From NCBI GenBank assembly GCA_021323895.1, contig JAJPKD010000132.1, positions 1-32,144 on the forward strand: a stretch of DNA of 32,144 bases, in the 5' to 3' direction. A program made the translations under genes and the position numbers. Shown in pieces: positions 3,402 through 20,459 of this stretch. This DNA comes from Acidobacteriota bacterium (GTDB taxonomy: Bacteria > Acidobacteriota > Blastocatellia > Pyrinomonadales > Pyrinomonadaceae). The notes under the pieces are model-generated. The model was not told the origin of the DNA. It saw only the letters and a program-made list of their open reading frames with translations, and searched no databases. Numbering within the stretch: the stretch's first letter is position 1; each line of letters starts with the position of its first letter.

Positions 3402-3429
3402 TTAGATTGGAATGATTGCGACTCTCGGC

Positions 3430-3442
3430 AATTCTTAACTGA
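3430..3442. repeat. 13-bp direct repeat, right copy (AATTCTTAACTGA)
   Basis: Second copy of the 13-mer also found at 2441-2453. It lies in the 49-bp gap between the ABC ATPase stop and the efflux gene start. Confidence 0.4.
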
Positions 3443-3450
3443 CGATCACT

Positions 3451-4335
3451 TTACAGAATATGTTCGCGCGGTAGTCGGCTCTTGTCCCACGGATTTGTCG
3501 TCTCGAAATGCGAAAGGACAGTGCCGTTGTCGGCGTTAGTCAGCCGCTGCACAGCAGGCAGGGAACTTCGCTGAAAGTCGCCGACGCTGCCGGTGAAAAT
3601 TATTTTTCCCTTCTCCAGCACCATGACTCGCGTCGCCGGCGCAGAGGCGTCGTTCGCTTCCTCGATCGCTATGCCGTTTTCGGTTTGCACCGCGCGATGT
3701 GAGGCCAGGTAGAAAATTTCATCCAACTTCTTGGTCACATAAATTGAAGAGATGCCGTGTACGTCGCGGGCGCGCACGATCAAATCCAGGACTTGCTCGG
3801 CGGTGATTGGATCGAGACCGGCGGCGGGTTCATCGAACAACATGATGGACGGCCAGCCGACCAGCGCGCGCGCAATTTCCAGACGGCGTCGCATCCCTCC
3901 CGACATCTCGAATGGAAGCTTCTCAAAATCCTGGTCGAGCCCGACAAAGCGCAGCACCTCCATCACCAGTTTTTCAATCGTCTCTTCGTCGGCGCCATGC
4001 TCCTCAAGCCGGTACGCGACATTTTCATACGCGGAGAGGCCCGTGAAAAGTGAGTCCTCCTGAAAAACCATTCCCATCCGGCTGCTGCGAATCTCCAGTA
4101 GCTTGGTCTCGCTGAGCGGCCCAACGTCGCGACCTTCGAGCAGCACTTGTCCGTCGTCAGGATGATCCAAGGCAATCGCGAGACGAAGCAGAACCGACTT
4201 TCCCGATCCTGACTCACCGGTAATGAATAACATTTCACCGCGTTGCAGGTAGAAGTTGATGTCGTACAGGACTTGCTTCTCGTCAAAACTGAGCGACACG
4301 TTGCGAAATTCAATGGCTGGAGATTCCTGGTTCAT
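3451..4335 (-). CDS. ABC transporter ATP-binding protein, MlaF-like, with unusual H-loop
   Basis: A 294-aa ABC ATPase most like the MlaF group, which powers lipid transport between membranes by MCE/Mla complexes. Motifs: Walker A GESGSGKS (40-47), Q-loop MVFQEDSLFTGLSAYENVAY (Q92), signature SGGMRRRLEIARAL (145-158), and Walker B IMLFDEPAAGLDP (D168, E169). The H-switch position reads IYVTKKLDE, with Lys202 where a His is expected. A stretch of about 20 residues (217-236) then precedes the usual VMVLEKGKI strand. The start at 4335 is chosen over an upstream in-frame ATG (4443) because GAGGAA lies 5 nt before it and the extension has no family similarity. No permease (MlaE) or MCE protein (MlaD) is in the window, so any partners are encoded elsewhere. 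Assignment to the MlaF branch rests on motif context and is less certain than the ABC assignment. Confidence 0.85.
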   Translation of the reverse strand: MNQESPAIEFRNVSLSFDEKQVLYDINFYLQRGEMLFITGESGSGKSVLLRLAIALDHPDDGQVLLEGRDVGPLSETKLLEIRSSRMGMVFQEDSLFTGLSAYENVAYRLEEHGADEETIEKLVMEVLRFVGLDQDFEKLPFEMSGGMRRRLEIARALVGWPSIMLFDEPAAGLDPITAEQVLDLIVRARDVHGISSIYVTKKLDEIFYLASHRAVQTENGIAIEEANDASAPATRVMVLEKGKIIFTGSVGDFQRSSLPAVQRLTNADNGTVLSHFETTNPWDKSRLPREHIL

Positions 4336-4340
4336 GGTGT

Positions 4341-4346
4341 TTCCTC
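4341..4346 (-). promoter_or_regulatory. Shine-Dalgarno GAGGAA of the ABC ATPase gene
   Basis: GAGGAA on the minus strand, 5 nt before the ATG at 4335. It decides the start against the longer reading frame. Confidence 0.75.
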
Positions 4347-4456
4347 GACGCGCAGGCGCGTAGCCTTCAAGCAGAGGGCAACCTTCGTACCTATATTGAC
4401 CGGCATGTAAACGGGCAGTGGGTGAGGCAACGCGTTCGAACACGTGTGCAAAAGCT

Positions 4457-4490
4457 CGCAGCGCGCGACGAAATTACGCAGCGCGCTGCG
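4457..4490. repeat. CGCAGCGCG repeats and palindrome, operator-like
   Basis: A perfect 14-bp palindrome CGCAGCGCGCTGCG (4477-4490) is preceded exactly 20 bp upstream by another copy of its half-site, CGCAGCGCG (4457-4465). The spacing is about two helical turns. It lies in the 187-bp gap upstream of the ABC ATPase start and downstream of the PLP enzyme stop. It could bind a regulator or, as RNA, fold as a hairpin between 4457-4465 and 4482-4490. No T-tract follows. Confidence 0.4.
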
Positions 4491-4522
4491 ATGCTTCAAT
4501 GCCGTAATCGCCATGCATGTGC

Positions 4523-5788
4523 TCATCCCACGCCGGCGAACTCTCCTTCGGCCACGCCAAGTTCAAGATGCAAGCGCGTCGCATCTCGCCGGGTGATTCC
4601 AAGCTCGTTCAGGCATCGATTGATCACTTCCCAGGTGGCGGCAATGTCGTTGTCCAAACCCACGGAGAAGCGAATCAGGCCATCGCTCATTCCCATCTTC
4701 AATCGTTCTTCTTCGGGAATTTCCGCCGAAGTGCTGTGGCCGGGCGCGCTGAACAGCGTCTTGAAATAACCGAGGCTGACCGCGAGATAACCAACTTTTT
4801 CTTCTTGCAGACGCGTCATGAGACGATCAGCCGTCAGGCGATCGCCAACATCGACGGCGACCATGCCACCGAAGCCGAAGCCCGGATTCATTAGCTGCTG
4901 CATCAATCGATGTTGCGGGTGACGCTCGAGACCCGGGTAATGAACGGGGAGGCCCAGCTCCTCGAAGCGTTGCGCCAGGTAGAGAGCGTTGCGGCTGTGA
5001 TGCCGCATGCGAATGTGCAGGCTGTGCAGGTTCTTGAGAATGTTCGCCGCGCGAATGCTGTCGAGCACCGGCCCCAGCAACATGCACGGCCCGTGATTAG
5101 TATTCGTCAAGCGATTGATGAATTCGTGCGTCGAGACAACGCAGCCCGCCACGCAATCGCTCGTGCCATTGATGAATTTCGTCATGCTGTGCACGACCAC
5201 GTCCGAGCCAAGCCGCAGCGGCGAAATCATAAGCGGGCTGAAAGTGTTGTCCACCACGAACGTCAATCCGCAATTCTTCGAGACTCGCGCCAGCATCGGG
5301 ATGTCAGCCACCTCGAGTAGCGGATTGTTGATGCTCTCGCAGTAGAGCACGCGGGTCTTTGGAGTGATTGCGGCGCGCACGGTTCGCTCGTCGCGCAGGT
5401 CAACGAATCGCGTCGTGATCCCAAAGCGCGGCAGCAGATTCGCGAGTAATGCGTACGTACCGCCGTACACGGTGCGCTCGGCAACGATCTCATCTCCGGC
5501 TGAGCACAACTCCATGAGCGTGCAGGCAATCGCCGCCATCCCCGAGGACGTTACCTGTGCCCATTGCCCATCTTCCATGCGCGCGAGCGCCATCGAAAGA
5601 TACTTATTCGTCGGATTGAACTGGCGCGAATAAAGGAAACATCCTTCGATTTCATGATCGAAGAGCTCCTCCATCTTCCCAACGCTGAGAAACGTGTAGG
5701 TAGATGAGTCGCAGATCGACGGATTCACATCTCCGAATTCACCAAAGACGAGAAAGTTTTGAATTTCAGTTGCTGGGTCGAAAGTCAT
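4523..5788 (-). CDS. Cys/Met metabolism PLP-dependent enzyme (cystathionine gamma-synthase / methionine gamma-lyase family)
   Basis: A 421-aa fold-type I PLP enzyme of the trans-sulfuration family. Visible family motifs: YSRQFNPT (53-60, with the Tyr and Arg that reach across to the neighbouring active site), SSGMAAI (81-87), VYGGTYAL with the ring-stacking Tyr108, ESINNP (151-156), VVDNTFSP with the pyridine-binding Asp180, and HSMTKFINGTSD with the PLP lysine Lys204. The C-terminal ISDGLIR-type motif appears as MSDGLIRFSVGLDN. The cysteine characteristic of classical methionine gamma-lyases after the active-site Tyr is a Gly here (YGG), so that exact activity is doubtful; cystathionine gamma-synthase, O-acylhomoserine sulfhydrylase or cystathionine lyase remain possible. 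The start at 5788 is fixed by GGAGG 5 nt upstream; a longer in-frame start at 5845 would overlap the preceding gene. Confidence 0.9.
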   Translation of the reverse strand: MTFDPATEIQNFLVFGEFGDVNPSICDSSTYTFLSVGKMEELFDHEIEGCFLYSRQFNPTNKYLSMALARMEDGQWAQVTSSGMAAIACTLMELCSAGDEIVAERTVYGGTYALLANLLPRFGITTRFVDLRDERTVRAAITPKTRVLYCESINNPLLEVADIPMLARVSKNCGLTFVVDNTFSPLMISPLRLGSDVVVHSMTKFINGTSDCVAGCVVSTHEFINRLTNTNHGPCMLLGPVLDSIRAANILKNLHSLHIRMRHHSRNALYLAQRFEELGLPVHYPGLERHPQHRLMQQLMNPGFGFGGMVAVDVGDRLTADRLMTRLQEEKVGYLAVSLGYFKTLFSAPGHSTSAEIPEEERLKMGMSDGLIRFSVGLDNDIAATWEVINRCLNELGITRRDATRLHLELGVAEGEFAGVG

Positions 5789-5793
5789 GATGG

Positions 5794-5799
5794 CCTCCC
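5794..5799 (-). promoter_or_regulatory. Shine-Dalgarno GGGAGG of the PLP enzyme gene
   Basis: GGGAGG on the minus strand, 5 nt before ATG 5788. It supports the shorter start and removes an overlap with the upstream gene. Confidence 0.75.
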
Positions 5800-5826
5800 G
5801 TGTTTCTGTGCAGAATAATCGTGACG

Positions 5827-6432
5827 CTAGGCGGCGCGGCGACAACCGGCCGCGTCCTTCTTTGCTTTATCAAGCGCGGCCAGCGCGGCTGACTCCGCTG
5901 CTCGCTTGGCTGCTAATTCGCGCTCGTATCTCTCGACGTCCATGTCCGCGGCGAGCCGCTGGTCCTCTAACTTCTGATTCGCTGCTCGCAGCGCGTCAAT
6001 GTCCTTCTTTGCCTTGTCGATGCGGGCCTGCACCGTCGTGCAGTTGCCCGAAAGCGGCGCCAGCGGACCATTCGCGTTGTCACAGCGCGCCTTTTCTTCT
6101 TTGAGTTGATCGAGCAACGCTTCGGCCTTGTTCTGCTGTGCTTCGTTGGCCTTAATCCTCGACGCGATCGAGTTGACGTTGTTCTTTGCGCGGTTGAGAT
6201 TGCCTTCTGCCACGATGCGCGCAGACCGCGCGCGGTTGTAGTCTCCTTGCGCTCTGCCGAGCGCCGCGATCACGCCGTCGCAGGGGTTTTTCTGAGCGTT
6301 CGCGCCGAACCCTAGTGAGGTGACCGCGACCGAAATCAAAAGCAAGAGGCAGTAAGTAATCGTTAGAGGCGTGCGCGAAGCTTTGCCCTGACTCGGACAT
6401 TTTCGAGCTGATTTTGCTGAATTGATTACCAT
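5827..6432 (-). CDS. Exported coiled-coil protein of unknown function
   Basis: 201 aa. A basic N-terminus is followed by a hydrophobic stretch (about 22-44) ending in GANAQ, which looks like a signal peptide cleaved near residue 46. The mature part is almost entirely Ala/Lys/Glu/Arg-rich heptad sequence (about 55-195), predicting long coiled coils in two arms split by a Gly/Pro/Cys-containing turn (around PLAPLSGNC). Cysteines at the start, middle and end of the mature chain could pair in the periplasm. AAGGAG lies 6 nt before the ATG. The gene is 24 bp downstream of the 412-aa exported protein and 38 bp upstream of the PLP enzyme on the same strand. I do not recognise a family; a periplasmic scaffold is only a guess. 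Confidence 0.75.
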   Translation of the reverse strand: MVINSAKSARKCPSQGKASRTPLTITYCLLLLISVAVTSLGFGANAQKNPCDGVIAALGRAQGDYNRARSARIVAEGNLNRAKNNVNSIASRIKANEAQQNKAEALLDQLKEEKARCDNANGPLAPLSGNCTTVQARIDKAKKDIDALRAANQKLEDQRLAADMDVERYERELAAKRAAESAALAALDKAKKDAAGCRRAA

Positions 6433-6456
6433 GATGATCTCCTTAAGTGCTGGCGC

Positions 6457-7695
6457 TTACTCCAAACCGCTGAGTGTCGCTTGCGGAAACGGCATCGCGC
6501 CTGGATTCTTCGGCGGCAGCAGCTTCACCATTCCGCCGGTGACCTCGTTACTAATCCAAGGTCGCCCATACAGCGTTCCGGCGCGAATTGCATCCGGATT
6601 GAACCGCAGATCGAAAGTGTTAGGACTCGGAAAATACGTTTCGACAAAGAATCGGCCGGGTCCAAGATTCAGGAATCCAGCTTTACTCTTGTCCTGTTCC
6701 GGATGCGGCGCGATCTCTCCGTTAGGCAGCACCGTGAAGTGCAGCTCGCGCACGACCTGTCCTGCTACCCGAATTTTGAGATTCCATTTGCCGGGGCGAT
6801 CGGCCAACCACAGCCAGCCGGGACCGGCCGCGCTGCCTTTCGCTCCCCACAACAACTTGGGTCGAAATGCCACTAAATAGACATTGTGCGGATTGACGAC
6901 GCGATCGTTCTTCGCCTTGACGAAGATGTCTTCCTGCTGATCGAACGTGGTTATCGATTCGTGGTTCTGGCTCGCGTCGAAAGCGTCATCGAGCGGCACC
7001 GGATTGCCATCGACTGATAACTTGTAGCTGATGTCTTTGATCGCAGAATCGTGTTGCAGGTTCATCCACGTATAAATCCAAACGCCGGTCAACTCGCCGC
7101 TGCTCGGTTGTCTTTGCACAATGTAACTGAAGCCAAGCAGGTCGTCGTAGAGCGCTCCATACTTCCAATTGTTCTTGCTGTCGTCGTAGTAAACAGTCTT
7201 TACGACTTGGAATTGCCGGGTGGTAAGCGTTCCCGTCTTCTTAGACGTGTCGTCATAGTACTTGAAGACTGCGGTGATCTTGCCGACGGGCGTGTAAATG
7301 TCCTTCTCTTCATTGCCGCGAATTTCCCAATCCTCGTACCAGGTCTCGCCGCCTGTACCTTTCAAGCCGGCGCGCAGGGTCCCGAGAACTTTTCCATCCT
7401 GGTAGAACTCCACCGTTACCGCGTCGCCCTTTCGCGTCCGGCCGAGCATCCGGCCGCTGATCTTCGGCGTCCATCCGACATGTTGATACGCGCCGTTAAT
7501 CATTTTGCGGACGCTGATGACTTGGAATTCAAGCGGCGCGTCAGCCATGGACGGTGCCTGCGCGGCTGTCGCTTTGTAGGGATCTAGTTCCTGGCCAAAC
7601 ACGGGCACCGTAACCAGGACGGTTATGACCAGCGCCGCAAATAGCATCGCCAGCACAAACAGGATTAAGGAAAGATACGATCGGGTATTTCTCAT
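6457..7695 (-). CDS. Exported or membrane-anchored protein of unknown function
   Basis: 412 aa. Residues 7-34 form one strongly hydrophobic segment followed by FGQELDPYKA, fitting a signal peptide or an N-terminal anchor. The rest is soluble, rich in aromatic and beta-type sequence, with short motifs suggesting a string of beta-sandwich modules (EFYQDGKVLGTLRAG, WNLKIRVAGQVVRELHF, FDLRFNPDAIRAGTLYGRPW). Few cysteines, no catalytic motif seen. A possible Shine-Dalgarno AAAGGA lies 8 nt before the ATG. It is the first gene of the closely spaced minus-strand run and lies just downstream of a terminator hairpin. I do not recognise the family; the export signal and fold style are inference. Confidence 0.75.
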   Translation of the reverse strand: MRNTRSYLSLILFVLAMLFAALVITVLVTVPVFGQELDPYKATAAQAPSMADAPLEFQVISVRKMINGAYQHVGWTPKISGRMLGRTRKGDAVTVEFYQDGKVLGTLRAGLKGTGGETWYEDWEIRGNEEKDIYTPVGKITAVFKYYDDTSKKTGTLTTRQFQVVKTVYYDDSKNNWKYGALYDDLLGFSYIVQRQPSSGELTGVWIYTWMNLQHDSAIKDISYKLSVDGNPVPLDDAFDASQNHESITTFDQQEDIFVKAKNDRVVNPHNVYLVAFRPKLLWGAKGSAAGPGWLWLADRPGKWNLKIRVAGQVVRELHFTVLPNGEIAPHPEQDKSKAGFLNLGPGRFFVETYFPSPNTFDLRFNPDAIRAGTLYGRPWISNEVTGGMVKLLPPKNPGAMPFPQATLSGLE

Positions 7696-8150: not shown

Positions 8151-10097
8151 TCAGAAACGATTTCGATATTCGATCGATGAAATGAACGCTTTGACCATTT
8201 CGGCCTGAACATAATTGCCGTTGAATTGATTCAGCTTGCTCAGCCAGAAATTGTAGCCGCTGAAGTTTCCGTCGGGCGCCGCGTCGGGATCTCTCTGCAA
8301 ATATCCAAAGTACTCCATCAGCACGAAGGCGTTGTTGAATTCTTTCTGTTGGAAGGCTTGGTTCTCAGCGATCATGCGCAACGCGGCGGCGCGGCCCGCA
8401 GTGTCGCCAGAGCCGTAGGCGGTGATGGCGGCGTTCCGCTCCGAAGTCGTTGGCGTTACTCCTGCCGTCTGGAAGAGGTTGTTGACGTACGTCGATGCAG
8501 GCATGCCGTTAGGATAAAGCGCGAGGAATTGCGAACGCTGAACAAACGTTTGCGTAAAGGCAACTTTATTTGCTTCAAGCTGCTGTTCCCAGCCTGTTTG
8601 GAGGACCACTACGCCATTCGAAATGGTTCGCGTGTCGGCTAGGAAGGTAGCGCGCGTGACCGGTACCGGCTTCCCGCTAATGTTTCCAAACGCAGCTCGG
8701 TAGAGTCGATAAACCAGATATCCCGTTTGCTGAAATTCGATCGAAAGAAAGAAGGCCGCGCTCGTATCGATGCGCCTGACCTCGCGACACCCGACGTCTG
8801 ATCCGCAGTTCTCGACGTTCTGCGTCCAGAATTGAAAGCCGCTGGCATCAGGCTCGCGCGAGAGGAAATCCACGTATTGCTGGCGCACGTAGAAGCGCGA
8901 TTCGTCCACGATCGCCGGATTTGCTATGCAGGTGTTAAGCGAACGCGCGAGATTCAGCCGACCACCGCTGGTAGTCTTGTCGGTTAAGAGTGAGTCGGCA
9001 TCGGCATTCGTAATCATCACGCCCTTCAAACCGGCAGCCGTCAAATTGCAGCGCGACAGCAACAGCGCCGCAGCACCAGCGACATGAGGCGCAGCCTGCG
9101 ACGTGCCGCTGAAAGTTCCGTATGTGCCATTGCGCAACGTCGCGAAAATTACGTTGCCTGGCGCGCCGAGATGGACTGTCTTGTTGCCCCAGTTTGAAAA
9201 CGTCGCCAATGCATCGCGATTATCGGTGGCCACAACCGAAATGATTCCGGGTTCGTTGTAGTTGCTGGGGTAGGTCGGTGTGGTGCCGTTATCGTTATCG
9301 TGCCCGCCTTTCGTAAAGCCATCGTTCGCCGTTCCGTTGCCAGCGATCGAGACGAACAACATCCCGTTCGCTTCCACGCGTTGGATCTCATCAAGCAAAG
9401 ATTGAGAGAACGCACCGGCGTACCAACTATTATTCAGTACCTTGATGTTAGCTAGTCCGGCCTGCTTGAGCTGGACAGCGACTTCGAGCGCGTCGATGGC
9501 GTCAGAGATGCATCCTGAATTACTACTGTTGAGCCATTTGATGCCGAGCAGTTGCGTACGCCAGTTAATGCCGGTTACGCCCTGTCCATTATTTCCCGCG
9601 GCGCCAATGATGCCTGAAACGTTCGAGCCATGATTGTGATCGTCGAGGGGATCGCATGTATTCGTGATCGTGTTGATGCCGTGGGTGTTCGCTGGGCAAT
9701 TGATCGTGACACCGCTGATCGTAACTGAGAGTGGCGCAGAAGCAGACCACACGTTAGGCGAGAGGTCCGGATGGTTGTAGTCAATTCCGCTGTCGAGTAT
9801 CGCCACCACCTGGCTCAGTGAATCGTGTGTGATATCCCACGCCGCTTGCGCCGAGATGTCTGCGCCGGCCGTTCCGGGCTGTCCGCTAATTGTCTGACCC
9901 GTGTTGCGCAGACCCCACTGTTGCGACGCGTAGAAGGAGTCATTCGGCACAGCACCACCGTAGGCGACATAGTCGGGTTCTACGTACTCGACGTCAGTGC
10001 GCGTCGTCAGTTCTGCCATCAGCGCCGCGGTTGACCAGCTTCGCGAGTGGATGAGTCGCACCGGCGCCGCCGACTTCCACGTCCGAGTCAACGTCAT
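8151..10097 (-). CDS. Secreted subtilisin-like S8 serine protease with C-terminal DUF4214-like region; frameshifted from its signal/propeptide
   Basis: The main frame holds the end of the propeptide (LIHSRSWSTAALMAEL, DVEYVEPDY), then a full S8 catalytic domain. The triad is intact: Asp in AILDSGID (codon 9794-9792), His in DDHNHGSNVSGIIGA (9632-9630), Ser in SGTSQAAPHVAGAA (9101-9099), with the oxyanion Asn in SIAGNG. The last about 240 residues (from ESRFYVRQQYVDFLSREPDA) resemble the DUF4214 region found at the C-end of many acidobacterial secreted proteins, with the REPDA / RDPDA motif twice. The nominal start at 10097 is not real: the signal peptide and first part of the propeptide sit in the next frame (9994-10311). 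The intact product would be about 720 aa, extracellular. Whether it is a pseudogene or a sequence error is unresolved. Confidence 0.85.
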   Translation of the reverse strand: MTLTRTWKSAAPVRLIHSRSWSTAALMAELTTRTDVEYVEPDYVAYGGAVPNDSFYASQQWGLRNTGQTISGQPGTAGADISAQAAWDITHDSLSQVVAILDSGIDYNHPDLSPNVWSASAPLSVTISGVTINCPANTHGINTITNTCDPLDDHNHGSNVSGIIGAAGNNGQGVTGINWRTQLLGIKWLNSSNSGCISDAIDALEVAVQLKQAGLANIKVLNNSWYAGAFSQSLLDEIQRVEANGMLFVSIAGNGTANDGFTKGGHDNDNGTTPTYPSNYNEPGIISVVATDNRDALATFSNWGNKTVHLGAPGNVIFATLRNGTYGTFSGTSQAAPHVAGAAALLLSRCNLTAAGLKGVMITNADADSLLTDKTTSGGRLNLARSLNTCIANPAIVDESRFYVRQQYVDFLSREPDASGFQFWTQNVENCGSDVGCREVRRIDTSAAFFLSIEFQQTGYLVYRLYRAAFGNISGKPVPVTRATFLADTRTISNGVVVLQTGWEQQLEANKVAFTQTFVQRSQFLALYPNGMPASTYVNNLFQTAGVTPTTSERNAAITAYGSGDTAGRAAALRMIAENQAFQQKEFNNAFVLMEYFGYLQRDPDAAPDGNFSGYNFWLSKLNQFNGNYVQAEMVKAFISSIEYRNRF

Positions 10098-10311
10098 AAC
10101 TCTGTTCTACGCTTTGCCGCGCGGCTTGAAGCTTCGAGCTTCGGAACTTGACGAGCACCCGACCGGCAGCCGCTTCCTGACCAGCGATCATTTCTGTCTT
10201 GAATCCGGCTGTCTGCGGAACCTGCGCGTGTGAAATCTGGGCCTGACGAACTGCGAAGAAAACATTGGCAATTGCGGAAATTAGAATGGCGATAAACGCA
10301 GCTTTACGCAT
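9994..10311 (-). pseudogene. Signal peptide and N-terminal propeptide of the S8 protease, in a different frame
   Basis: Starting at ATG 10311, with AAGGAG 9 nt upstream (10321-10326), this frame encodes a signal peptide (MRKAAFIAILISAIANVFFA, continuing to HAQ) and the beginning of an inhibitor-I9-type propeptide (GRVLVKFRSSKLQAARQSV, then SDVEVGGAGA). It then runs out of phase and stops at 9994. The propeptide continues in the neighbouring frame with LIHSRS and DVEYVEPDY, so the two frames are halves of one gene. The join lies about 10045-10070, in a GC-rich run, and needs a net +1 shift (one extra base or two missing). Confidence 0.8.
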
Positions 10312-10532
10312 TTCCGGGAACTCCTTGTGTATGTCACTCAGTAATAAAGCCCATTTTATCGGGCGAATATTCCAAGAATCGAAAGATCTGGGCGGGCGAG
10401 ATTGAGCATCACGATAGTAACGGCAAGAGCGCAAGCAATGCCAGTGCCGGATGTGAATTAGCAGGACTGAACTGTTAAAGATCCTGGTTGGTCCCTGAAA
10501 GTCCATGTTACGTTTTCGAGGTTGAATCCATA
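10312..10532. promoter_or_regulatory. Protease upstream region, probable promoter area
   Basis: Non-coding region upstream of the protease start. On the minus strand it holds TTGCTT, a 16-nt gap and TATCGT (around 10407-10434), and an A/T-rich TAAAAT close to the gene. Neither is strong enough to call as the promoter. Nothing else recognisable. Confidence 0.3.
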
Positions 10533-10799: not shown

Positions 10800-13700
10800 G
10801 TGATAAATAGAGCGCGTCGGTTATGTCCTGTGATGCGTAGTCAAAGAATCCCCCAGGCAAAATTTGTGTTCCCGGAAGCTAGCCCCGAGCCATTTTTCCG
10901 TAACGCGAAAGCGCCAAAGCGAATCGTCGCTGCACTGCAAGTGGTCCTCGTCTGCCTTTTTCTGCCAGCCGTCGCGCAATCTGCACCAGCAGCGCCAGAT
11001 GTTGAGACTGTCGAGAAGCTGATCACGGAAGCTAACTCCGCTCGTTCTGAGTGGCGTGAGGCGTCCCTCTGGAAAGCATTATCTAATTATGATTTAGCTG
11101 CAGAAATTTTCCTGAGGTTGCATCGTCACCAGCGCGCCTCGAACGCGCTCATGGAAGCTGGCGCCGTGGAATTCTCCCTCGGTCAGTATCGCGCGGCACT
11201 GGAGCGGTATCATCGATCTTGGCTTGAGGCCAAAGCTGCGCGCGATGATTTGCAGACAGCACTCGCGCTAAGCGAAACAGGACGAATGTACTCGTTACTG
11301 GGCGACAACGGGAAGGCCCAAACTGCTTGTGCCCAAGCACGCGAATTTTTCGAGGGGAAAGCATCTAAAGATCCATCGACCAATTTCCAAACAGCCTACG
11401 CTCGCGCGCTGAAGAACAGCGCGGAAGTTCAATACTCCGAAGGCAACCTGCTGATGGCCTCGCAGAACTTTCGTCGCGCATTGGACTTGTTTGTTAAAGC
11501 GAAAGACGAGGACCGCGAAGCAGGGGCGCGGTTGTTCCTGGGCTATATCGCAGGCAGCTTGGGCGATCCGACGACCGCGTCGGCTGAGATCTCTCACGCA
11601 CTGACGATCTATCGATCAGTCGGAGACAAAAGTGGCGAGGGCATGTGCCTGACGGCGCTCGGGATTGCGAGTTCACTTAACCGTGAGATCGAGCACGCCT
11701 TAAAGTTGCACAGCGAGGCACGCGAAATCTTTCAGAAGATCGGCGATCGCCAAAGTGAAGGTGTCGTACTAAATGGCTGGGGGCAAGCTTTTGAAGATTT
11801 GAGTAATTACCAAGCGGCGCTCGAAAAGTATCGTGAGGCATTTCAGCTCTTTGAGGCAAACGGCAGTTTGGATTTTGTTCCGGTGGTGATGTTCAAGATT
11901 GCCCGAACGCGGCGTATCATGGGCGATAATGACGGAGCCATCGCGGCTTACCAGCAATGTTTCAAGCTGAGCCGCGCGGCCAGAAAGACTCGCACGGAAG
12001 CCAACGCTTTGAACGATCTGGCGTTGATGTACGCGGCTCGTCAAGATCGTCAGAATACGATTGCGCAATATCGACGGATTCTTAAATTCTACGAGTCAAA
12101 CAGAGATCGTCGCAGCCGAGTAGTCGCTCTCAATAATCTCGCTGACTTTTATTTGCGCATCGGCGAGAACACAAACGCGCTTCGCACCTATCAACAATCT
12201 CTATCTCTGAGCGATGGGCTCAGCGACAAACCGGTGAAAGCCGCGACGCTGTACGGCTTGGCGCTAACTACTCGCAATTCCGGTCGTCTGGATGAATCGC
12301 TGTCCTACCTAAGGCGCTCCGTTGATTTGCTCGAAGGGTTACGCGCAAATGTCGCCAGCCCGGATTATCGAACCTCGTATTTCGCCGGTGTGCGGTCTTA
12401 TTACGAATTGGAAATCGACGTGCTGATGCAACTCGAGCGTAAACGCCCGGGTGAGGGATTCGCAACGCAGGCTTTTCTTGCTAATGAAAATGCGCGCGCG
12501 CGCTCATTGATTGATTTGGTGATCGAGGCAGGCTCCGATGTGCGTCAGAACGTTACGCCACAGATGTTGCAACGCGAACGTGAGCTGCGCGCACTGCTTC
12601 GGACCCAGGCCCAGTACGAAATGGATTTGGAATCGAAAGGCAGCAGCGAAGCGGACGAAGTGAAAAAGCAGATCGCTGAATTGCGGAATCAGTATGAACA
12701 ACTGGAAGGGGATTTGCGGGAGCAGAACCCTCGGTCCACTGCTGTGGTGAAGAACGGGCTGGAGCTCAGCGAAATTCAACGCCAGTTAGACGAAAACACG
12801 GTTCTATTGGAGTACTCGTTGGGCGATGATCGCAGCTATTTGTGGATGGTAACCAGGGACTCGTTGCGGAGCTACGAGTTACCGCCGCGGAAGAACCTCG
12901 AGGCTCTGGCGCTGGAGAGTTACAAAGCGCTGACTGCGCGGAAGGAATTCGACGGACGAACCGATGCTGGATATCAACATGAGGTTGAAGGTGCGGATGC
13001 CTTATTTGAAAAGAATGCGGCGAGCCTCGGCGATATGCTGCTGGGTGCAGTGGCGAGCGAACTTGGAACAAAACGATTGCTGATCGTCGCACAGGGACCC
13101 CTGCAGTTCATTCCATTCGACGCCTTGCCGATTCCTAACGACACCTCGGAAAACAGCGCGACCAATAGTCGCGTTAGGCTTATCGAGAGACACGAGGTGG
13201 TAATGCTTCCGTCATTTGCGACGCTGGCTGCGATTCGCTCCGGCACGCGTCCAGTTGGCTCGCCGGACAAAGTAGTTGCGGTGCTGGCTGATCCCGTCTT
13301 CACTAGTGGTGACGACCGCGTGGCGCATCAAAACGACGCAAGTGTTGCTGCGGTTGACTTGAATGCAGCGAAGACGTTTCCCGCGCTCCGTGAATTTGGA
13401 AACCTCACCAGAGCGGGAGGCACTTTGCGTTTGATTCACGCGGCAGAGGAGGCCGACACGATCGTGAACACTGTTCCACGCGGGGCAGCTCTGGTTGCGA
13501 AAGGCTTCGAAGCTAATCGCGAAACTGCTACAGGTCCAGTCATCGGCAAATATCAGATCGTTCATTTCGCGACTCATAGTTTTTTGAATTCGGTGCATCC
13601 CGAGTTATCTGGCGTAGTGCTGAGCAGAGTGAACCGCGACGGCAGCAGTGCCGACGGCTTCATTGGTTTGGCCGATATTTATCACATGCACCTCACCGCT

Positions 13701-14120
13701 AATCTGGTTGTTCTGAGTGCTTGCGACACCGCGCTTGGGAAAGAAGTGAAGGGCGAAGGCTTGGTTGGTTTAACTCATGCATTTATGTCCGCAGGAGCAA
13801 GGGGGGTCGTTGCCAGCCTGTGGAAGGTGGACGACCGTGCGACGGCAGCTTTGATGTCGGAATTTTATAGGGCGATGTTGCAGGATGGACTGCCGCCTGC
13901 GGCCGCTTTGCGCACGGCAAAAGAAAAGATCAGGGGACAAAAGACGTGGAGCGCGCCATATTATTGGGCCGGATTCGTGCTACAGGGCGAATACAAAGAT
14001 CCAATTGCAATCAGAAATCATACCTGGCGCTCAGCGATGATCTTTTTTGCTCTGGCGCTTGGCTTTATCTTGTCTGTGTTCCTAATTCTCAGGCAGAGAC
14101 GGAACCGCCGCCCACTGTGA
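10800..14120 (+). CDS. TPR-CHAT protein: exported, membrane-anchored caspase/separase-like protease
   Basis: 1106 aa from GTG 10800; ATG 10833 is an equally possible start. Neither has a clear Shine-Dalgarno. Domain order: hydrophobic signal-like segment (about 41-60, ending AVAQSAPAA), about ten TPR units of 36-40 residues (about 80-530), a charged coiled coil (about 580-650), a CHAT peptidase domain (about 750-1065), and a C-terminal membrane helix (about 1079-1098) with basic tail RQRRNRR. The His-Cys dyad is intact: His926 in IVHFATHS and Cys975 in VVLSACDTALG, with the usual GEGLVGLTHAFMSAGA and VVASLWKVDD following. With an N-terminal export signal and positive C-terminal tail, TPR and CHAT domains should face the periplasm. 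The gene is followed after 61 bp by a sigma factor and then a membrane protein, suggesting a signalling unit. Target unknown. Confidence 0.9.
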   Translation: MINRARRLCPVMRSQRIPQAKFVFPEASPEPFFRNAKAPKRIVAALQVVLVCLFLPAVAQSAPAAPDVETVEKLITEANSARSEWREASLWKALSNYDLAAEIFLRLHRHQRASNALMEAGAVEFSLGQYRAALERYHRSWLEAKAARDDLQTALALSETGRMYSLLGDNGKAQTACAQAREFFEGKASKDPSTNFQTAYARALKNSAEVQYSEGNLLMASQNFRRALDLFVKAKDEDREAGARLFLGYIAGSLGDPTTASAEISHALTIYRSVGDKSGEGMCLTALGIASSLNREIEHALKLHSEAREIFQKIGDRQSEGVVLNGWGQAFEDLSNYQAALEKYREAFQLFEANGSLDFVPVVMFKIARTRRIMGDNDGAIAAYQQCFKLSRAARKTRTEANALNDLALMYAARQDRQNTIAQYRRILKFYESNRDRRSRVVALNNLADFYLRIGENTNALRTYQQSLSLSDGLSDKPVKAATLYGLALTTRNSGRLDESLSYLRRSVDLLEGLRANVASPDYRTSYFAGVRSYYELEIDVLMQLERKRPGEGFATQAFLANENARARSLIDLVIEAGSDVRQNVTPQMLQRERELRALLRTQAQYEMDLESKGSSEADEVKKQIAELRNQYEQLEGDLREQNPRSTAVVKNGLELSEIQRQLDENTVLLEYSLGDDRSYLWMVTRDSLRSYELPPRKNLEALALESYKALTARKEFDGRTDAGYQHEVEGADALFEKNAASLGDMLLGAVASELGTKRLLIVAQGPLQFIPFDALPIPNDTSENSATNSRVRLIERHEVVMLPSFATLAAIRSGTRPVGSPDKVVAVLADPVFTSGDDRVAHQNDASVAAVDLNAAKTFPALREFGNLTRAGGTLRLIHAAEEADTIVNTVPRGAALVAKGFEANRETATGPVIGKYQIVHFATHSFLNSVHPELSGVVLSRVNRDGSSADGFIGLADIYHMHLTANLVVLSACDTALGKEVKGEGLVGLTHAFMSAGARGVVASLWKVDDRATAALMSEFYRAMLQDGLPPAAALRTAKEKIRGQKTWSAPYYWAGFVLQGEYKDPIAIRNHTWRSAMIFFALALGFILSVFLILRQRRNRRPL

Positions 14121-14181: not shown

Positions 14182-14769
14182 ATGCGTCATCGTCCAGAAT
14201 TATCCCCAGAGAGTTTTGAACAGTTGCTCGCCTGGTTAGATTCTGACCGCGACGCCGCAGCCAATGCGTACCTCGAGTTGCGGCATTCACTTGTCAAAAT
14301 CTTCGGATGGAATCATTGCAGCGATCCTGAGGGGATGGCTGATGAAACTTTTGACCGGGTTGCTCGACAAATCGAGCGGCTAAGAGAAAACTACGAAGGA
14401 AATCCGAATCTCTTCTTTTACGGAGTTGCCAACAATCTCATTCGTGAATATCAGAAGAAGGTTAAGACCCATGTTGCCATCGAGGATATAGATTTAAAGG
14501 ATGAATCGCTTCGCGAAGCTGAGACGGATTTGTTCCATAAGCGCGAGGAATGTCTGTCAAAATGTCTGGGCGAACTTAGCGCTGAAAAGCGTGAGTTGTT
14601 GCTGGAATACTACTCCGAGGAGAAGCATGCGAAGATCGATCGGCGGGCCGAAATGGCCAGAAAACTGGGCATTTCCATCCAAAATTTGCGTGTGCGCATG
14701 TGTCGGCTTCGAGATGCGCTGGAAGAATGTATCGAGCGCTGCCTGGAAAAATCGACTTCCGAAGAGTGA
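14182..14769 (+). CDS. Sigma-70-like (ECF-type) transcription factor
   Basis: 195 aa. The N-terminal half resembles sigma region 2 (SDPEGMADETFDRVARQI, then NPNLFFYGVANNLIREYQKK). The C-terminal half resembles region 4 with a helix-turn-helix: CLGELSAEKRELLLEYY, then EMARKLGISIQNLRVRMCRL, which reads like the usual LGIS..TVR..R..RAR segment. The linker between them is short, as in ECF sigma factors. ATG 14182 is preferred to the TTG at 14173. It lies 61 bp after the TPR-CHAT gene and 50 bp before the membrane protein gene, all on the plus strand. It probably directs RNA polymerase to a small regulon, perhaps including its own operon. Similarity is distant from textbook ECFs, so the promoter type cannot be guessed. 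Confidence 0.8.
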   Translation: MRHRPELSPESFEQLLAWLDSDRDAAANAYLELRHSLVKIFGWNHCSDPEGMADETFDRVARQIERLRENYEGNPNLFFYGVANNLIREYQKKVKTHVAIEDIDLKDESLREAETDLFHKREECLSKCLGELSAEKRELLLEYYSEEKHAKIDRRAEMARKLGISIQNLRVRMCRLRDALEECIERCLEKSTSEE

Positions 14770-14819: not shown

Positions 14820-15671
14820 ATGAATCCAAACCCGACCGACGCCACACTGCGACAGTTTCTTCTGCGAGTACTCGATCAAGACGACTCCGCAGAGATCGAG
14901 AAGCTCTTTATTTCCGATCCAGAGTGGAAGCAGCGCATCTTGGTTGCCGAAGAAGATTTGATTGAAGCCTACCTTGAAGGGACACTATCACCGACAGAGC
15001 GCCAACAATTTCTTACGCAATATGGCGATACGCCACAGCGCCAGCGCCGGTTGCAAATCACAAAATTGATAAAGGAACACGCGGTTGCACAAAGCTACCG
15101 TGAGCGTGCGACCTTACCGCCGAAGGCCTCCCTCTTATCGAGAGTTTGGCCGCTCAACATGCGGTTCTTGATTCCGGTTGTAGCGGTTGTGATTATCGCT
15201 CTAACGGCCGGCCTTGTTTTGCTGGTCCAATTTACCAGAGGGCGAGTTGCTGAAGCTGACTATCATGCGGCGATCGAACGCGAACTGGCGGATCTCAATT
15301 CAACCTCTCATCAATTCGACGTTCCTTCGCAAGTAGCTTCGCTGATTGTGTCACCGGTGTCAGTGCGAAGCGGAGCGGCCAATAATGAACTCACGCGAAC
15401 GCCCGACACGCGCGTCGTCGAGTTGCAACTGGTCTGGACCCAGAAGCGGAAGTTCGCGAGTTATCGCGCTGCGATTCATCGCGTTGGCGAAAGCGCGCAT
15501 TTCAGCGTTGCAAATCTACGCCTCGACAACTTGCCGATGGGTACGGTCGTGCGAGTAAGAGTCCCTGATCGCTTACTCAGGAAAGGACAATACGTAATCG
15601 AAGTTACGGGAGTTGATGTCAGCGGCAAGTCTGGCCCAACCGAAGAATATACCTTCGCGGTAAATTCCTGA
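14820..15671 (+). CDS. Single-pass membrane protein, candidate anti-sigma factor
   Basis: 283 aa from ATG 14820; the upstream in-frame extension runs into the sigma gene and is unlikely. Three parts are visible: a helical, acidic cytoplasmic domain (1-90; LRQFLLRVLD, EEDLIEAYLEGTLSPTERQQ), one membrane helix (116-138, FLIPVVAVVIIALTAGLVLL), and an outer domain (about 140-283) rich in beta-type sequence (RVVELQLVW, GTVVRVRVP, GQYVIEVTGVD). There is no HxxxCxxC zinc motif, so it is not a ZAS-type anti-sigma factor. The DxxLxAYLEGxL-like segment and the position right after a sigma gene are what one expects of a membrane anti-sigma. The function is inferred from organisation and gene order; direct family recognition is lacking. 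Confidence 0.7.
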   Translation: MNPNPTDATLRQFLLRVLDQDDSAEIEKLFISDPEWKQRILVAEEDLIEAYLEGTLSPTERQQFLTQYGDTPQRQRRLQITKLIKEHAVAQSYRERATLPPKASLLSRVWPLNMRFLIPVVAVVIIALTAGLVLLVQFTRGRVAEADYHAAIERELADLNSTSHQFDVPSQVASLIVSPVSVRSGAANNELTRTPDTRVVELQLVWTQKRKFASYRAAIHRVGESAHFSVANLRLDNLPMGTVVRVRVPDRLLRKGQYVIEVTGVDVSGKSGPTEEYTFAVNS

Positions 15672-16786: not shown

Positions 16787-19783
16787 TTAATCGAAGTTCC
16801 TAATCATAACAGCATCGCGCCTCCTGCCACCTCGTGACAGCACCATTTGCTGCTGATTAAGCCAATCGTAGTTCAGAATCAAGTCTTCAGTGAAGTTTGT
16901 GATCTTTGCTGGCGCCGAACCGTCCAATGGCTGACGCCAAATGTTATGGACGCCATTCACCTTGTCGAGATAGCTGAACCCTTTGCTGTCCGGCGTCCAG
17001 CGGATGATCTGATTGTATGGGTAAGGGAGCGCGAATGTCCGCACCGGCTCGCCTCCGGTGATGCGAAAAACAGCAATCTTCCAACGGTCTGTTTCGTCGG
17101 CTCGGTAAGTGCACGCGATGTTGGCGCCGTCGGGTGATACGACTGGCCGTAGCGCGATTCCGGCGAACGTCAGTTGCACCGGTTGACCTCCCGTAATGGG
17201 AATCTTCCACAAGGTGCCCCGGGCTTTCGCGCGCGAAGTGTAAACAACCCAACCGTTGTCGGGTGTGAAACTTGGATAGCTCTCGCCGTCGCCGAACGTG
17301 AGTTGATGATTGTTATTTCCGTCAACATCGACAAGCCAAATGTGATGACCTCCGCCATCGGTTGAAACGTAGGCTATCGTCTTTCCATTGCTCGATGGAG
17401 CGGGGACGAAACCGGTGTTGGTGGTAAGCTGTTTCCGATCACTGCTGTCGAGATTCATGCTCCAAAGGTGCGATTGCTCGTTTTCGCCGATGGTAAAGAC
17501 GATTCGACTCGCAGAGGTAATCCTCAGACCATCGGCTCCGCTTTTTCCATCGCTGGTCAATCGCTTTTGTTCCCCACTGAGATTCACCGTCCAAACGTCG
17601 GAAACCTCTTCCGTATCCGACGTCACCAGCGCATTCGGCGCCAGCGTGATGCTTTCGTATTCCCGCCCACTGCTGGTTAGAGGAGTCAGCTCCTTCTCGG
17701 GATATGAGACCCGCCAAAGCTCAATCGCTCGAGTGCCAGGTTTCTGACCAGAGAAAAGCAAACTCCGGCCGTCGTCTTTCCACGCCACACCGCGCACCGC
17801 CGACCATTGCCAGGGTGTCAGCTCGAATGGATTAGCGCCACTGAGGGGCACGGCCAGAACGGCGAGTTCGGTTTCGTTCTTGCGGCTGGCTGCGGCGGCG
17901 ATGATTTTGCCGTCAGGTGACCAGGCAACGCCCGCGAAGGAAAACTTGTCAGGATGTTGACGCGTGATGATTTCGCGTTCGCTCGTGCCGTCGACATTCG
18001 CGATGATTAGTGAATCGCGATGTTGGGCCGGATAACTTCGAATGAACGAGATTTGAGTTCCGTCCGGCGAAAAGCTGATCGGAGTGTCCAGATTGACGAC
18101 GACTTTTTGAGACGGCCCGCCGCGAACCGGCATGCGATAGAGGACGCTCACGGTGCTGCCGGGCTGCGTCGAGTTGTAGAAGAGGCTCTGACCGTTCGGC
18201 GTGAAACGCATGCCCCACAATAGTGCCGGATCAGGCGGCAACAATTCCCAGTTCTCATCAGTTTCCAGATTACGAATGCGCAGGCTTTGCTTTCCCGAAT
18301 CGATCAGCGCAAACGCCAGGAGCTTTCCGTCGGGCGATATCGATCCATCCATGGTGTGCCCGTTGGTACTTAACGAAACTAGTTCCAGCGCATTCTTGGG
18401 CCGGACGGTCTTGCGCGAGAGCGCACCGGATTTCATCAACATGAAAGCCGTCGTAACAATGGCAAGAACTCCGAGAAGCGAAGCCGCCACCAGGCGGCGA
18501 TTTCTGAAAACAGCCGGCATCGGATGAGCAATTACGTCAGATCGTTGGTCTAACGAATTTTCGTTAGCGACGATCGACGCCGTCGGCGCGGTCGTAACTT
18601 CCCGCCGTAGTTTCTCTGACGATTCCTCTGCATCGCTGGTGCTTGAGACCGATCCCATCTCATCCAGCGGCAACGCCATCTCCCACACACGCTGTTGTCT
18701 CGATATCGCTGATAGCTCATTAAGCGCCGGGACGAGACACGACGCGTCCGGATAACGAGCCTCCGTTTCTTTGCTTAAAGAGCGGCGAAGAATTTGGGTG
18801 GCCAGACTCGGAAGGCAGCGAATTCCGGTTTGCACCAGGCCCGGCTCGCTCTTCAGAATCTCAGCGATGACGTCGCTGTTTGTCGCGCCGGCAAACGGCG
18901 ATCTGCCGGCCAACATTTCATAAAACACTACACCCCAGCTCCAGATGTCGGTGCGCGCATCAACCCGTTGGCCGCGCGCCTGTTCGGGTGACATGTAGGT
19001 TGCCGTGCCCATTAACAAGCCTGGCTCTGTCTGAATCGCCTGCGAAGCGCGGTGGGGCTGAATATGTTCTGTGCCCCTGCGATCCGGGCCGGCAAGTTTT
19101 GCCAGCCCGAAATCAACTACCTTAACCAGGCCGTCCGGTCGAATGATGATGTTCTCCGGTTTGATGTCGCGATGAACGATGCCTTCCGCATGGGCTGCGG
19201 CGATGCCCGCAGCGACCTGGGTTGCGATGTCGAGCGCTTCACCAAAAACCAAATTATGTTTCGACAGTCGTTCGCGCAGGGTAACGCCATCGACGAATTC
19301 CATCGCGATGAAGAGTCGCCCTTCGGCTTCGCCAATCTCATATATGTGCGCAATGTTCGGATGCGAGATGGCGGACGCTGCGCGGGCCTCGTGCTTGAAT
19401 CTGCGCTCGCCGTCAGGATCCGGCCGAAGGAGTTTTGGCAGCAGCTTCAGCGCAACTTTTCGCCCCAGCCTAACGTCGTGCGCGAGATAAACCTCGCCCA
19501 TGCCGCCGCGGCCAATCGGACGAACGAGTTTGTAGGCCCCGAGCGTCTTTCCCGCCAGGGCTTCATCGGCTTGCTGCGAAATTATTCTCGCGCCGACGTC
19601 GAATATTGGCCGACTGAGAAAAGGCTCGTTGGCGTCGCTTTTTTCCAGCAAGGAGAGGACCTCGCGGTGCAAACGTTCGTCTCCAGCGCAGGCTGAATCC
19701 AAGAACTGCTTCCGCTGATCAAGAGGCACATCAACGACCGCGTTGAATAGTTCTTCGATCCGTTGCCAGAGATGAGGATCCAT
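16787..19783 (-). CDS. Membrane Ser/Thr protein kinase with C-terminal TolB/WD40-like propeller
   Basis: 998 aa. A short helical N-terminal region (1-80) precedes a complete Hanks-type kinase domain: GRGGMGEVYLA (91-101), VALK with Lys113, Glu132 of helix C, HRDIKPEN (Asp206), DFG (224-226), SPEQ (265-268) and the DIWSWGVVFYEML helix. A juxtamembrane linker follows, then one membrane helix (431-450, LVAASLLGVLAIVTTAFMLM), then about 530 outer residues with PD40/TolB-like blades (SPDGKLLAFA, FSPDGTQISFIRS, WSPDGKIIAAA, SPDGANIACTY). This is the layout of a transmembrane receptor kinase whose propeller senses something in the periplasm. The ECF sigma gene lies 76 bp upstream on the same strand, so the two are probably co-transcribed, and the kinase may control sigma activity by phosphorylation. 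The ATG at 19783 has only a weak upstream purine run. Confidence 0.93.
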   Translation of the reverse strand: MDPHLWQRIEELFNAVVDVPLDQRKQFLDSACAGDERLHREVLSLLEKSDANEPFLSRPIFDVGARIISQQADEALAGKTLGAYKLVRPIGRGGMGEVYLAHDVRLGRKVALKLLPKLLRPDPDGERRFKHEARAASAISHPNIAHIYEIGEAEGRLFIAMEFVDGVTLRERLSKHNLVFGEALDIATQVAAGIAAAHAEGIVHRDIKPENIIIRPDGLVKVVDFGLAKLAGPDRRGTEHIQPHRASQAIQTEPGLLMGTATYMSPEQARGQRVDARTDIWSWGVVFYEMLAGRSPFAGATNSDVIAEILKSEPGLVQTGIRCLPSLATQILRRSLSKETEARYPDASCLVPALNELSAISRQQRVWEMALPLDEMGSVSSTSDAEESSEKLRREVTTAPTASIVANENSLDQRSDVIAHPMPAVFRNRRLVAASLLGVLAIVTTAFMLMKSGALSRKTVRPKNALELVSLSTNGHTMDGSISPDGKLLAFALIDSGKQSLRIRNLETDENWELLPPDPALLWGMRFTPNGQSLFYNSTQPGSTVSVLYRMPVRGGPSQKVVVNLDTPISFSPDGTQISFIRSYPAQHRDSLIIANVDGTSEREIITRQHPDKFSFAGVAWSPDGKIIAAAASRKNETELAVLAVPLSGANPFELTPWQWSAVRGVAWKDDGRSLLFSGQKPGTRAIELWRVSYPEKELTPLTSSGREYESITLAPNALVTSDTEEVSDVWTVNLSGEQKRLTSDGKSGADGLRITSASRIVFTIGENEQSHLWSMNLDSSDRKQLTTNTGFVPAPSSNGKTIAYVSTDGGGHHIWLVDVDGNNNHQLTFGDGESYPSFTPDNGWVVYTSRAKARGTLWKIPITGGQPVQLTFAGIALRPVVSPDGANIACTYRADETDRWKIAVFRITGGEPVRTFALPYPYNQIIRWTPDSKGFSYLDKVNGVHNIWRQPLDGSAPAKITNFTEDLILNYDWLNQQQMVLSRGGRRRDAVMIRNFD

Positions 19784-19859
19784 ATGATGAGAGATTCCTA
19801 AACTACTACGTACTGTTCTGGTGAAAAAGCTATCCGCAGGTCGGGACTGCGAATGAAGA

Positions 19860-20459
19860 TCAAAGCGTTGGCTCAGGATTATGGCAGATTTCGCGCTGCA
19901 ACCAAGCCTTTGCGAGCCGCCAATGAAGCATCACCGTAACCGGTGCAATGCCGAGCACCTCGGCTACCTCATCGACGGTGAGCCCACCAAAGAATCGCAT
20001 CTCGACAATTCTGCTTTTCTTCTGATCAAACTTAGCCAAGCGTTGCAAGGCTTCGTCGAGCGCGATTAACTCTTCGGATTTTTGCGGCGAGATTACTGGT
20101 GCGTCCTCGAGGTCAACGTGCACCACATTGCCCCCTCGCTTAGCGCGCCGCTGCGCGCGGGCATGATCCAACAGGATGCGGCGCATAATTTTTGATGCCA
20201 GGGCGAAAAAGTGCGCGCGGTTCTGCCAACGAACTTCCCTCTGATCCACCAACTTCAAGTACGCCTCATTCACCAGCGCGGTTGTCTGGAGCGTGTGGCC
20301 CGGGTGTTCCCTGCGCATGTAATTACTCGCCATTCGTCGCAACTCGGCCTCGACCATTGGCAAGAGTTTGTCGAGCGCTTCAGCCGAGCCCGCATTCCAA
20401 TCGATTAAGAGTTGTGTGATTTGCTCGGTCACGAGGCTACGGTCGGGATTAAGAACCAC
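19860..20459 (-). CDS. ECF RNA polymerase sigma factor (acidobacterial kinase-linked type)
   Basis: About 199 aa from GTG 20459; a GTG at 20432 would give MTEQITQLLIDW, which looks like the common start of this family and may be correct. Region 2 is seen in ALDKLLPMVEAELRRMASNY, LVNEAYLKLVDQ and FFALASKIMRRILLDHARA. Region 4 is seen in LDEALQRLAKFDQKKSRIVE, RFFGGLTVDEVAEVLGIA and PVTVMLHWRLAKAWLQRE. The pattern matches the sigma-70 subgroup (TIGR02999-like) that is abundant in Acidobacteriota and often sits next to Ser/Thr kinase genes. No anti-sigma gene is adjacent; the kinase 76 bp downstream is the likely regulator. It is divergent from the giant exoprotein gene, with 223 bp between starts in which I see no convincing promoter pair. 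Confidence 0.92.
   Translation of the reverse strand: MVLNPDRSLVTEQITQLLIDWNAGSAEALDKLLPMVEAELRRMASNYMRREHPGHTLQTTALVNEAYLKLVDQREVRWQNRAHFFALASKIMRRILLDHARAQRRAKRGGNVVHVDLEDAPVISPQKSEELIALDEALQRLAKFDQKKSRIVEMRFFGGLTVDEVAEVLGIAPVTVMLHWRLAKAWLQREICHNPEPTL

Follow-up and report, generated by a model that had tools for sequence, protein, structure and literature searches.

The stretch of DNA that was analysed, referred to here as the window, comprises 32,144 nucleotides of an Acidobacteriota contig (JAJPKD010000132.1). Three genes follow one another on its forward strand: an ORF of 1106 codons encoding TPR repeats and a CHAT domain, a gene for an ECF-like sigma factor, and, beginning 50 bp after the sigma gene, an ORF for a 283-aa membrane protein with its ATG at 14820 and its stop codon at 15669-15671. 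The positions of these genes, of the features predicted within them and of the neighbouring genes are shown in Table 1.

Table 1. Genes and predicted features of the window (positions are counted from its first nucleotide)
Feature	Position	Strand	Evidence
Subtilase gene, adjoining TPR-CHAT	8151-10506	-	Peptidase_S8 E 5.2e-44, with DUF4214
TPR-CHAT protein (caspase clan), putative regulatory protease	10800-14120	+	CHAT E 5.4e-63 (Pfam)
Predicted catalytic His926 of CHAT	13575-13577	+	HFATH motif; His in 34/34 CHATs spanning both columns (37 matches)
Predicted catalytic Cys975 of CHAT	13722-13724	+	LSACDT motif; Cys in 34/34 CHATs spanning both columns (37 matches)
ECF-like sigma factor, 195 aa, predicted target	14182-14769	+	TIGR02989 E 4.8e-12 and TIGR02937 E 8.3e-10, both below cut-offs
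Sigma cysteines C124, C128, C183, C187	14551-14553, 14563-14565, 14728-14730, 14740-14742	+	CxxxC...CxxxC
Zinc-less membrane anti-sigma-like protein, 283 aa	14820-15671	+	ORF; AlphaFold2 pLDDT 89.2, pTM 0.57; sigma precedes in 84/87 homologous ORFs
Predicted extra N-terminal hairpin R1, residues 8-44, copy of R2	14841-14951	+	hhalign R1 vs R2 97.1%, E 7e-11
Putative degenerate anti-sigma domain R2, residues 45-97	14952-15110	+	hhalign vs 27 zinc anti-sigma domains 95.0%, E 4e-8
Site of lost HxxxCxxC (QYGDTPQR), residues 67-74	15018-15041	+	0/84 sigma-linked members with motif
Transmembrane segment, residues 118-136 (inside predicted helix 114-161)	15171-15227	+	Hydropathy and model
FnIII/Ig-like beta-sandwich, predicted extracytoplasmic sensor, residues 172-282	15333-15665	+	Model and fold search
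Separate ECF sigma, then Ser/Thr kinase with WD40-like propeller	16787-20459	-	PF07638 E 4.4e-55 (sigma)

Two neighbouring gene groups were also noted. The subtilase gene is apparently split over two overlapping frames (8151-10097 and 9994-10506), and its relative at locus L032 lies in a single frame within the fetched stretch. As a constant partner the subtilase was rejected, since the window's protein has matches in only 5 of 86 sources, the one in L071 without a Pfam peptidase domain. The sigma and kinase genes on the reverse strand are probably a kinase-linked type of ECF control.

By hydropathy, the transmembrane segment is the single strong hydrophobic segment of the 283-aa protein. The first homologue set comprised 42 ORFs; a transmembrane segment was called in 41 of them, and in the one ORF missing the call (L049) the alignment still shows a hydrophobic stretch at this place. 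In the AlphaFold2 model, built from 37 alignment rows, helices up to residue 97 are followed by the long helix carrying the transmembrane segment and by a beta-sandwich. The best match of the sandwich in the fold search was a phage neck protein (Z 8.5, 107 residues, rmsd 8.7 Å), followed by a match with Z 8.2 (107 residues, 3.3 Å) and by many FnIII/Ig folds; this search with the full model in effect probed the sandwich only, and anti-sigma folds were not among the matches listed. The FnIII/Ig-like sandwich of the model is a common fold and names no ligand. An earlier note on this DNA had described a protein with the position and layout of an anti-sigma factor and without HxxxCxxC, which agrees with what was found here; the beta-sandwich sensor that it placed at residues 140-283 is likewise predicted, but with the shorter extent given in Table 1.

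Searches with the single sequence gave weak scores for the N-domain. The sole Pfam match of the whole protein (to E 10) was zf-HC2 at residues 45-64 with E 0.0046, under its cut-off, and NCBIfam gave one match only, to an unrelated family (E 0.13). These scores speak for a membrane partner unrelated to sigma control whose likeness to anti-sigma domains is due to chance, an alternative that the earlier note had left standing. The profile comparison of the N-domain with anti-sigma families, which that note had proposed, argues against it: in hhalign, residues 46-91 align at the profile level with zinc anti-sigma domains at 95.0% and E 4e-8, and the same alignment reversed gave 0.2%. The zinc anti-sigma set consisted of 27 of 30 loci from related genomes, the 3 loci without a nearby HxxxCxxC having been dropped. 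The family profile reaches these domains mainly through its second half, the EEDLIEAYLEGTLSPTERQQ half, and R1 compared with them gave 80.8%. The resemblance of EEDLIEAYLEGTLSPTERQQ to the helical part of anti-sigma domains, pointed out earlier from the letters, is thus borne out, the zf-HC2 match in this region being below its cut-off.

A profile of 42 homologous N-domains (A2) matched, at E 1e-5 or better, in at least 47 of 297 genomes of the phylum, a lower bound because 16 candidates were scored per genome where more existed; some of these genomes have second-half matches only. Among 14 fetched matches covering mainly the second half of the N-domain, 11 carry HxxxCxxC, and in the 9 of these with a full alignment the motif aligns with HFLxSPxR of the family. 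At this aligned position the full HxxxCxxC is present in 0/84 sigma-linked family members, which places them outside the ZAS subfamily and rules out a zinc finger kept in another register. The His of the motif is kept in 21/84 members, whose other two positions have also changed in most cases: S or T stands for the first Cys in 68/84 of the members and R for the second Cys in 58/84.

The class I layout has four helices, a three-helix bundle on sigma 4 and a fourth helix on sigma 2, and five are predicted in the window model up to residue 97 (7-14, 20-32, 34-53, 58-68 and 72-97). A PDB sequence search with the N-domain profile gave no significant match; the top one was 3hug_B (E 0.15), presumably RslA, the anti-sigma factor of SigL. 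From these sequence comparisons, the N-domain is predicted to be a degenerate class I-like anti-sigma domain with a second copy of its helical hairpin. The suggestion of a distinct anti-sigma class was upheld in part: the extra duplicated hairpin sets the family apart, but its domain resembles those of class I, of which about 44% are without the zinc motif according to the available text of PMC7406223. With zinc-less anti-sigma factors this common, the anti-sigma protein as such is already of a known kind.

The window sigma is divergent, with Pfam recognising region 4 at only E 0.0015, and a PDB sequence search with it matched no sigma factor. To follow the gene pair in relatives, loci were picked from lists in which matches were ordered by how similar their anti-sigma protein or N-domain is; these lists give the length of the open frame and no neighbouring genes. 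In the window and 85 fetched loci (L numbers), 88 ORFs matched the N-domain profile, and 87 were kept after a second ORF of L059 with a single hairpin was set aside. In 84 of these 87 ORFs, the gene immediately before, in the same orientation and at most 300 bp away, encodes a sigma factor; no sigma gene was found near the other three (L053, L066 and L191). The linkage to sigma genes in relatives, on which the earlier note had made its reading depend, is present for nearly all of these ORFs.

The distances between sigma factors and those between anti-sigma proteins correlate with r 0.44 (84 pairs, 44 genomes). When partners were swapped within genomes (20 genomes, 60 pairs), the mean r was 0.27 and the maximum 0.37, and 0/1000 swaps reached 0.44, which supports cognate pairing of sigma and anti-sigma beyond species history; co-inheritance of the operon contributes to the co-variation as well. 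A search for bipartite promoters upstream of 84 clusters gave no shared element above shuffles.

Sigma and anti-sigma genes are in frame with each other in some relatives, which made a joined model possible. The chain used was that of L034 read through the stop codon (312 aa; alignment of 95 rows, 30 of them joined), comprising sigma 2, sigma 4 and the anti-sigma domain. AlphaFold gave it pTM 0.86 and pLDDT 90.2, overall scores for the cognate pair only; at this pTM, a random placement of the three flexibly linked domains would not be expected. Over both sigma domains, the model superposes on sigma factors bound to anti-sigma proteins at 8.2 Å (1or7_B, 149 residues), 8.7 Å (6in7_B, 154 residues), 9.1 Å (8z6g_D, 151 residues) and 10.4 Å (6dxo_A, 128 residues), while ECF sigmas bound to RNA polymerase gave 18 to 25 Å (for example 6jbq_F, 165 residues, 23.4 Å). 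The remaining listed anti-sigma-bound ECF chains align over sigma 2 only. Ranked by Z, polymerase-bound sigmas come first (8.4 to 8.0) and anti-sigma-bound AlgU and sigma E next (7.3 to 6.5), a near-tie. A Foldseek search with the joined model gave no match at E 0.001 or better, the top rows being AlgU/MucA (E 0.35) and SigW/RsiW (E 0.47).

Binding of the sigma factor by the 283-aa protein is thus well supported computationally, through the predicted complex and co-variation, and the protein very probably functions as an anti-sigma factor. Against the profile match with its clean reversed control, the upstream sigma gene, the co-variation and the pTM of the complex model, an unrelated membrane partner appears highly improbable and is close to refuted.

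In the linked sigmas, one CxxxC opens region 4 and a second CxxxC closes it, and all four cysteines are present in 66/84. The spaced four-Cys pattern was found in 0/29 other sigma genes of two genomes (29 scored of the best 30 of 69 matches). The control sigma of L211, read in the right frame, is also without it, and the control of L193 resembles a housekeeping sigma. The four cysteines may form a metal or redox site.

The TPR-CHAT protein encoded upstream of the sigma gene has two hydrophobic segments, an N-terminal one resembling a signal or transmembrane helix (residues 42-60) and a C-terminal transmembrane segment (residues 1079-1097). A PDB sequence search with it gave TPR-type matches only and no CHAT. 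With a minimum length of 700 aa for the CHAT protein, 61 of the 87 ORFs either have a CHAT gene no more than 1.6 kb away or encode a fusion. CHAT lies upstream of the sigma/anti-sigma pair in 38 and downstream in 12, it is on the opposite strand in 3, and in 8 it forms one protein with the anti-sigma domain; the remaining 26 ORFs have none. The count becomes 62/87 with fragments allowed and 58/84 without L146-L148, which had been picked as likely fusions. Both gene sets were listed for seven genomes, and there a listed CHAT gene is no more than 5 kb away for 25 of 38 two-hairpin anti-sigma matches, against 1.32 expected; the CHAT genes counted are the strongest matches, those listed, and one single-hairpin match was left out. 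Genome G038 has 60 CHAT matches, yet only 1 of its 8 anti-sigma genes has a listed CHAT at a distance of 5 kb or less (0.57 expected).

The 26 ORFs without a nearby CHAT and the 1/8 of G038 indicate that many of these anti-sigma factors may work without CHAT. Both also count for a rather unlikely explanation in which the protein is an anti-sigma factor but is not under the control of this protease: the FnIII/Ig-like domain would act as the sensor, or proteases of the DegS/RseP type would cut, and TPR-CHAT would be a member of the regulon or an effector. Sigma factors often switch on the genes next to their own, and the sandwich aligns across the family whether or not a member has CHAT next to it, as this explanation would have it. 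It fits less well with the placement of CHAT both upstream and downstream of the pair, a link which survives rearrangement, and the eight fusions, which keep the transmembrane segment and the catalytic motif, would be hard to explain if CHAT were a mere regulon member.

Genes for other peptidases were observed at related loci. A clostripain-like gene is present in 16/86 loci (L037, L038, L039, L040, L041, L042, L043, L048, L068, L070, L149, L160, L180, L181, L182 and L187), beside CHAT in all except L182; the assignment is based on Peptidase_C11 (E 2.5e-26, Pfam) for the L180 member and on blastp clustering for the others. The gene order in L040 is C11 (1383-2984), CHAT (3045-6797), sigma and anti-sigma. 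In L035, a caspase-domain gene (Peptidase_C14, E 4.1e-21; 5054-7159, reverse strand) lies 234 bp after the anti-sigma gene. Three of the closest relatives encode a second, small CHAT-domain protein near TPR-CHAT (L032:2084-2869, L033:13415-14404 and L034:13327-14373), recognised by Pfam CHAT in L032 (E 4e-8) and L034 (E 3.4e-9) and by phmmer in L033.

The eight fused ORFs have the architecture ASD-TM-TPR-CHAT. In five of them examined with Pfam, CHAT was matched with E 1e-58 to 3e-66 and TPRs lie between the transmembrane segment and CHAT; hydropathy gives a transmembrane segment after the anti-sigma domain in 8/8. These counts are not frequencies, because L146-L148 were taken for their fusion-like frame length and some of the other loci were sought as separate proteins. 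Among the separate CHAT proteins, an N-terminal hydrophobic segment is above the cut-off in 36/53 and falls short of it in 17/53, and a C-terminal transmembrane segment is present in 14/53, the window's included. This hydropathy pattern suggests that CHAT would mostly lie on the external face of the membrane, the same side as the sandwich.

Further fusions may exist, since 18 matches (genomes G011, G034, G057, G044, G032, G052, G037, G007, G056, G025, G020, G029, G028, G018, G049 and G024) fall in ORFs as long as ASD-TM-TPR-CHAT fusions (1161-1267 codons), and the seven that were fetched are all fusions. A protein of about 285 aa is encoded directly after four of the eight fusions (L055:2740-3594, L058:2869-3750, L146:2285-3115 and L148:6677-7534), the one of L058 being without a Pfam match. 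In the anti-sigma homologues L062:6994-8013 and L165:5738-7027, a TPR region replaces the beta-sandwich, perhaps as an intermediate towards TPR-CHAT fusions.

The His/Cys motif was found by pattern in 53/53 separate and 8/8 fused CHATs. Such conservation in all 61 linked or fused CHATs suggests that catalysis matters and weighs against a conformational relay without cleavage, in which TPR-CHAT, bound to the sandwich or part of one chain with the anti-sigma domain, would pass a signal along the membrane helix, with CHAT serving as a scaffold or cleaving other targets. TPRs are binding domains, CHAT could act in cis in the fusions, and the anti-sigma factor is a CHAT substrate by prediction only, all of which is compatible with a relay; it is nevertheless considered doubtful, and more so than an anti-sigma factor outside CHAT control.

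A membrane-anchored zinc-less anti-sigma factor that holds the ECF sigma and is itself controlled by TPR-CHAT cleavage is the reading we prefer, and taken as a whole it is somewhat more probable than its negation. The cytoplasmic N-domain would bind the ECF sigma of the upstream gene at its regions 2 and 4 and keep it off RNA polymerase, and one transmembrane helix would join it to the periplasmic FnIII/Ig-like domain. The TPR-CHAT protein would be exported and tethered to the membrane, its caspase-like domain facing the periplasmic part of the anti-sigma factor. Upon a cue sensed by the TPR region, CHAT would cut the anti-sigma factor in a site-1-type cleavage, and general proteases would then free the sigma factor for its putative target genes. 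In the ASD-TM-TPR-CHAT relatives, sensor, protease and anti-sigma factor would be on one chain. The homology, linkage, fusions, catalytic motif and hydropathy pattern were computed; what we infer is the binding of sigma, from the model and co-variation, together with the topology, the cleavage, its signal and the target genes. The readings weighed here overlap, and their probabilities need not sum to 1.

A fuller version is put forward tentatively. TPR-CHAT in the periplasm would be the signal-dependent first cutter of the zinc-less anti-sigma factor, and CxxxC...CxxxC in sigma region 4 would provide a second check, gated by redox state or metal; the cysteine site lost from the anti-sigma factor would thus have a counterpart in the sigma factor. 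A clostripain-type protease adjoins in some relatives, the fusions would unite sensor, protease and anti-sigma factor on one chain, and the whole would be a non-CRISPR counterpart of Craspase.

Zinc-less anti-sigma factors and CHAT near ECF54 have already been published; what distinguishes the present family is its second hairpin, its repeated association with CHAT genes and the occurrence of ASD-TM-TPR-CHAT fusions. A literature search gave no account of a CHAT/sigma/anti-sigma cluster among the matches listed, subscription journals being mostly outside its scope. In the literature covered, as far as its available text goes, only the CRISPR-linked CHAT protease is known to act on a sigma inhibitor. 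The recurrent chromosomal cluster and the fusions offer the CHAT clan a concrete substrate candidate and a transcriptional read-out, and the linked sigmas provide, in their four-cysteine site, a second point for testing.

Among known systems, the zinc-less class I anti-sigma factors RseA and RskA likewise have a cytoplasmic helical domain and a gene beside that of an ECF sigma, and lack HxxxCxxC; MucA is also a zinc-less anti-sigma factor of class I. When both domains are compared, sigma bound by RseA or MucA gives the best superposition with the sigma arrangement of the joined model. In the portion of PMC7406223 that is available, RseA is given as an anti-sigma factor without zinc, and about 65% of class I members have a transmembrane helix. 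Unlike RseA and RskA, the window protein is near the zinc type in sequence, with a degenerate HxxxCxxC, and its family has the duplicated hairpin, the FnIII/Ig-like sensor predicted from the model and often a CHAT gene or fusion.

For ECF54, with an example from Geodermatophilus, the text available from PMC8999054 describes CHAT, subtilase and carboxypeptidase genes nearby and proposes control by proteolysis. The window cluster is likened to ECF54 by gene context alone. Unlike in the ECF54 model, the CHAT-linked ECF sigma here does have an anti-sigma factor, encoded directly downstream, which may have been missed because its zinc motif is gone. In the Calp system, CalpT is an anti-sigma factor that is cut to free a sigma factor. 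It differs from the window cluster in its protease, CalpL being of the Lon type with a SAVED sensor in type III CRISPR and not a CHAT protein.

In gene content the cluster also resembles Craspase (type III-E CRISPR), where the TPR-CHAT protein Csx29 cleaves Csx30, the inhibitor of CASP-sigma, as described in the available part of PMC10028731. Shared with Csx29/Csx30/CASP-sigma are a TPR-CHAT protein with the His/Cys motif, a sigma inhibitor and an ECF sigma encoded together, both in the window and in the 61/87 ORFs. No Cas family was among the Pfam matches of the 15 window ORFs scanned, two of which had no match. Unlike in Craspase, the inhibitor of the window is predicted to be anchored in the membrane, many CHATs have export-like signals and ASD-TM-TPR-CHAT fusions occur, and cleavage is here predicted by analogy. 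With its recurrence and its fusions, the chromosomal cluster raises the possibility that Craspase exemplifies a more widespread type of module.
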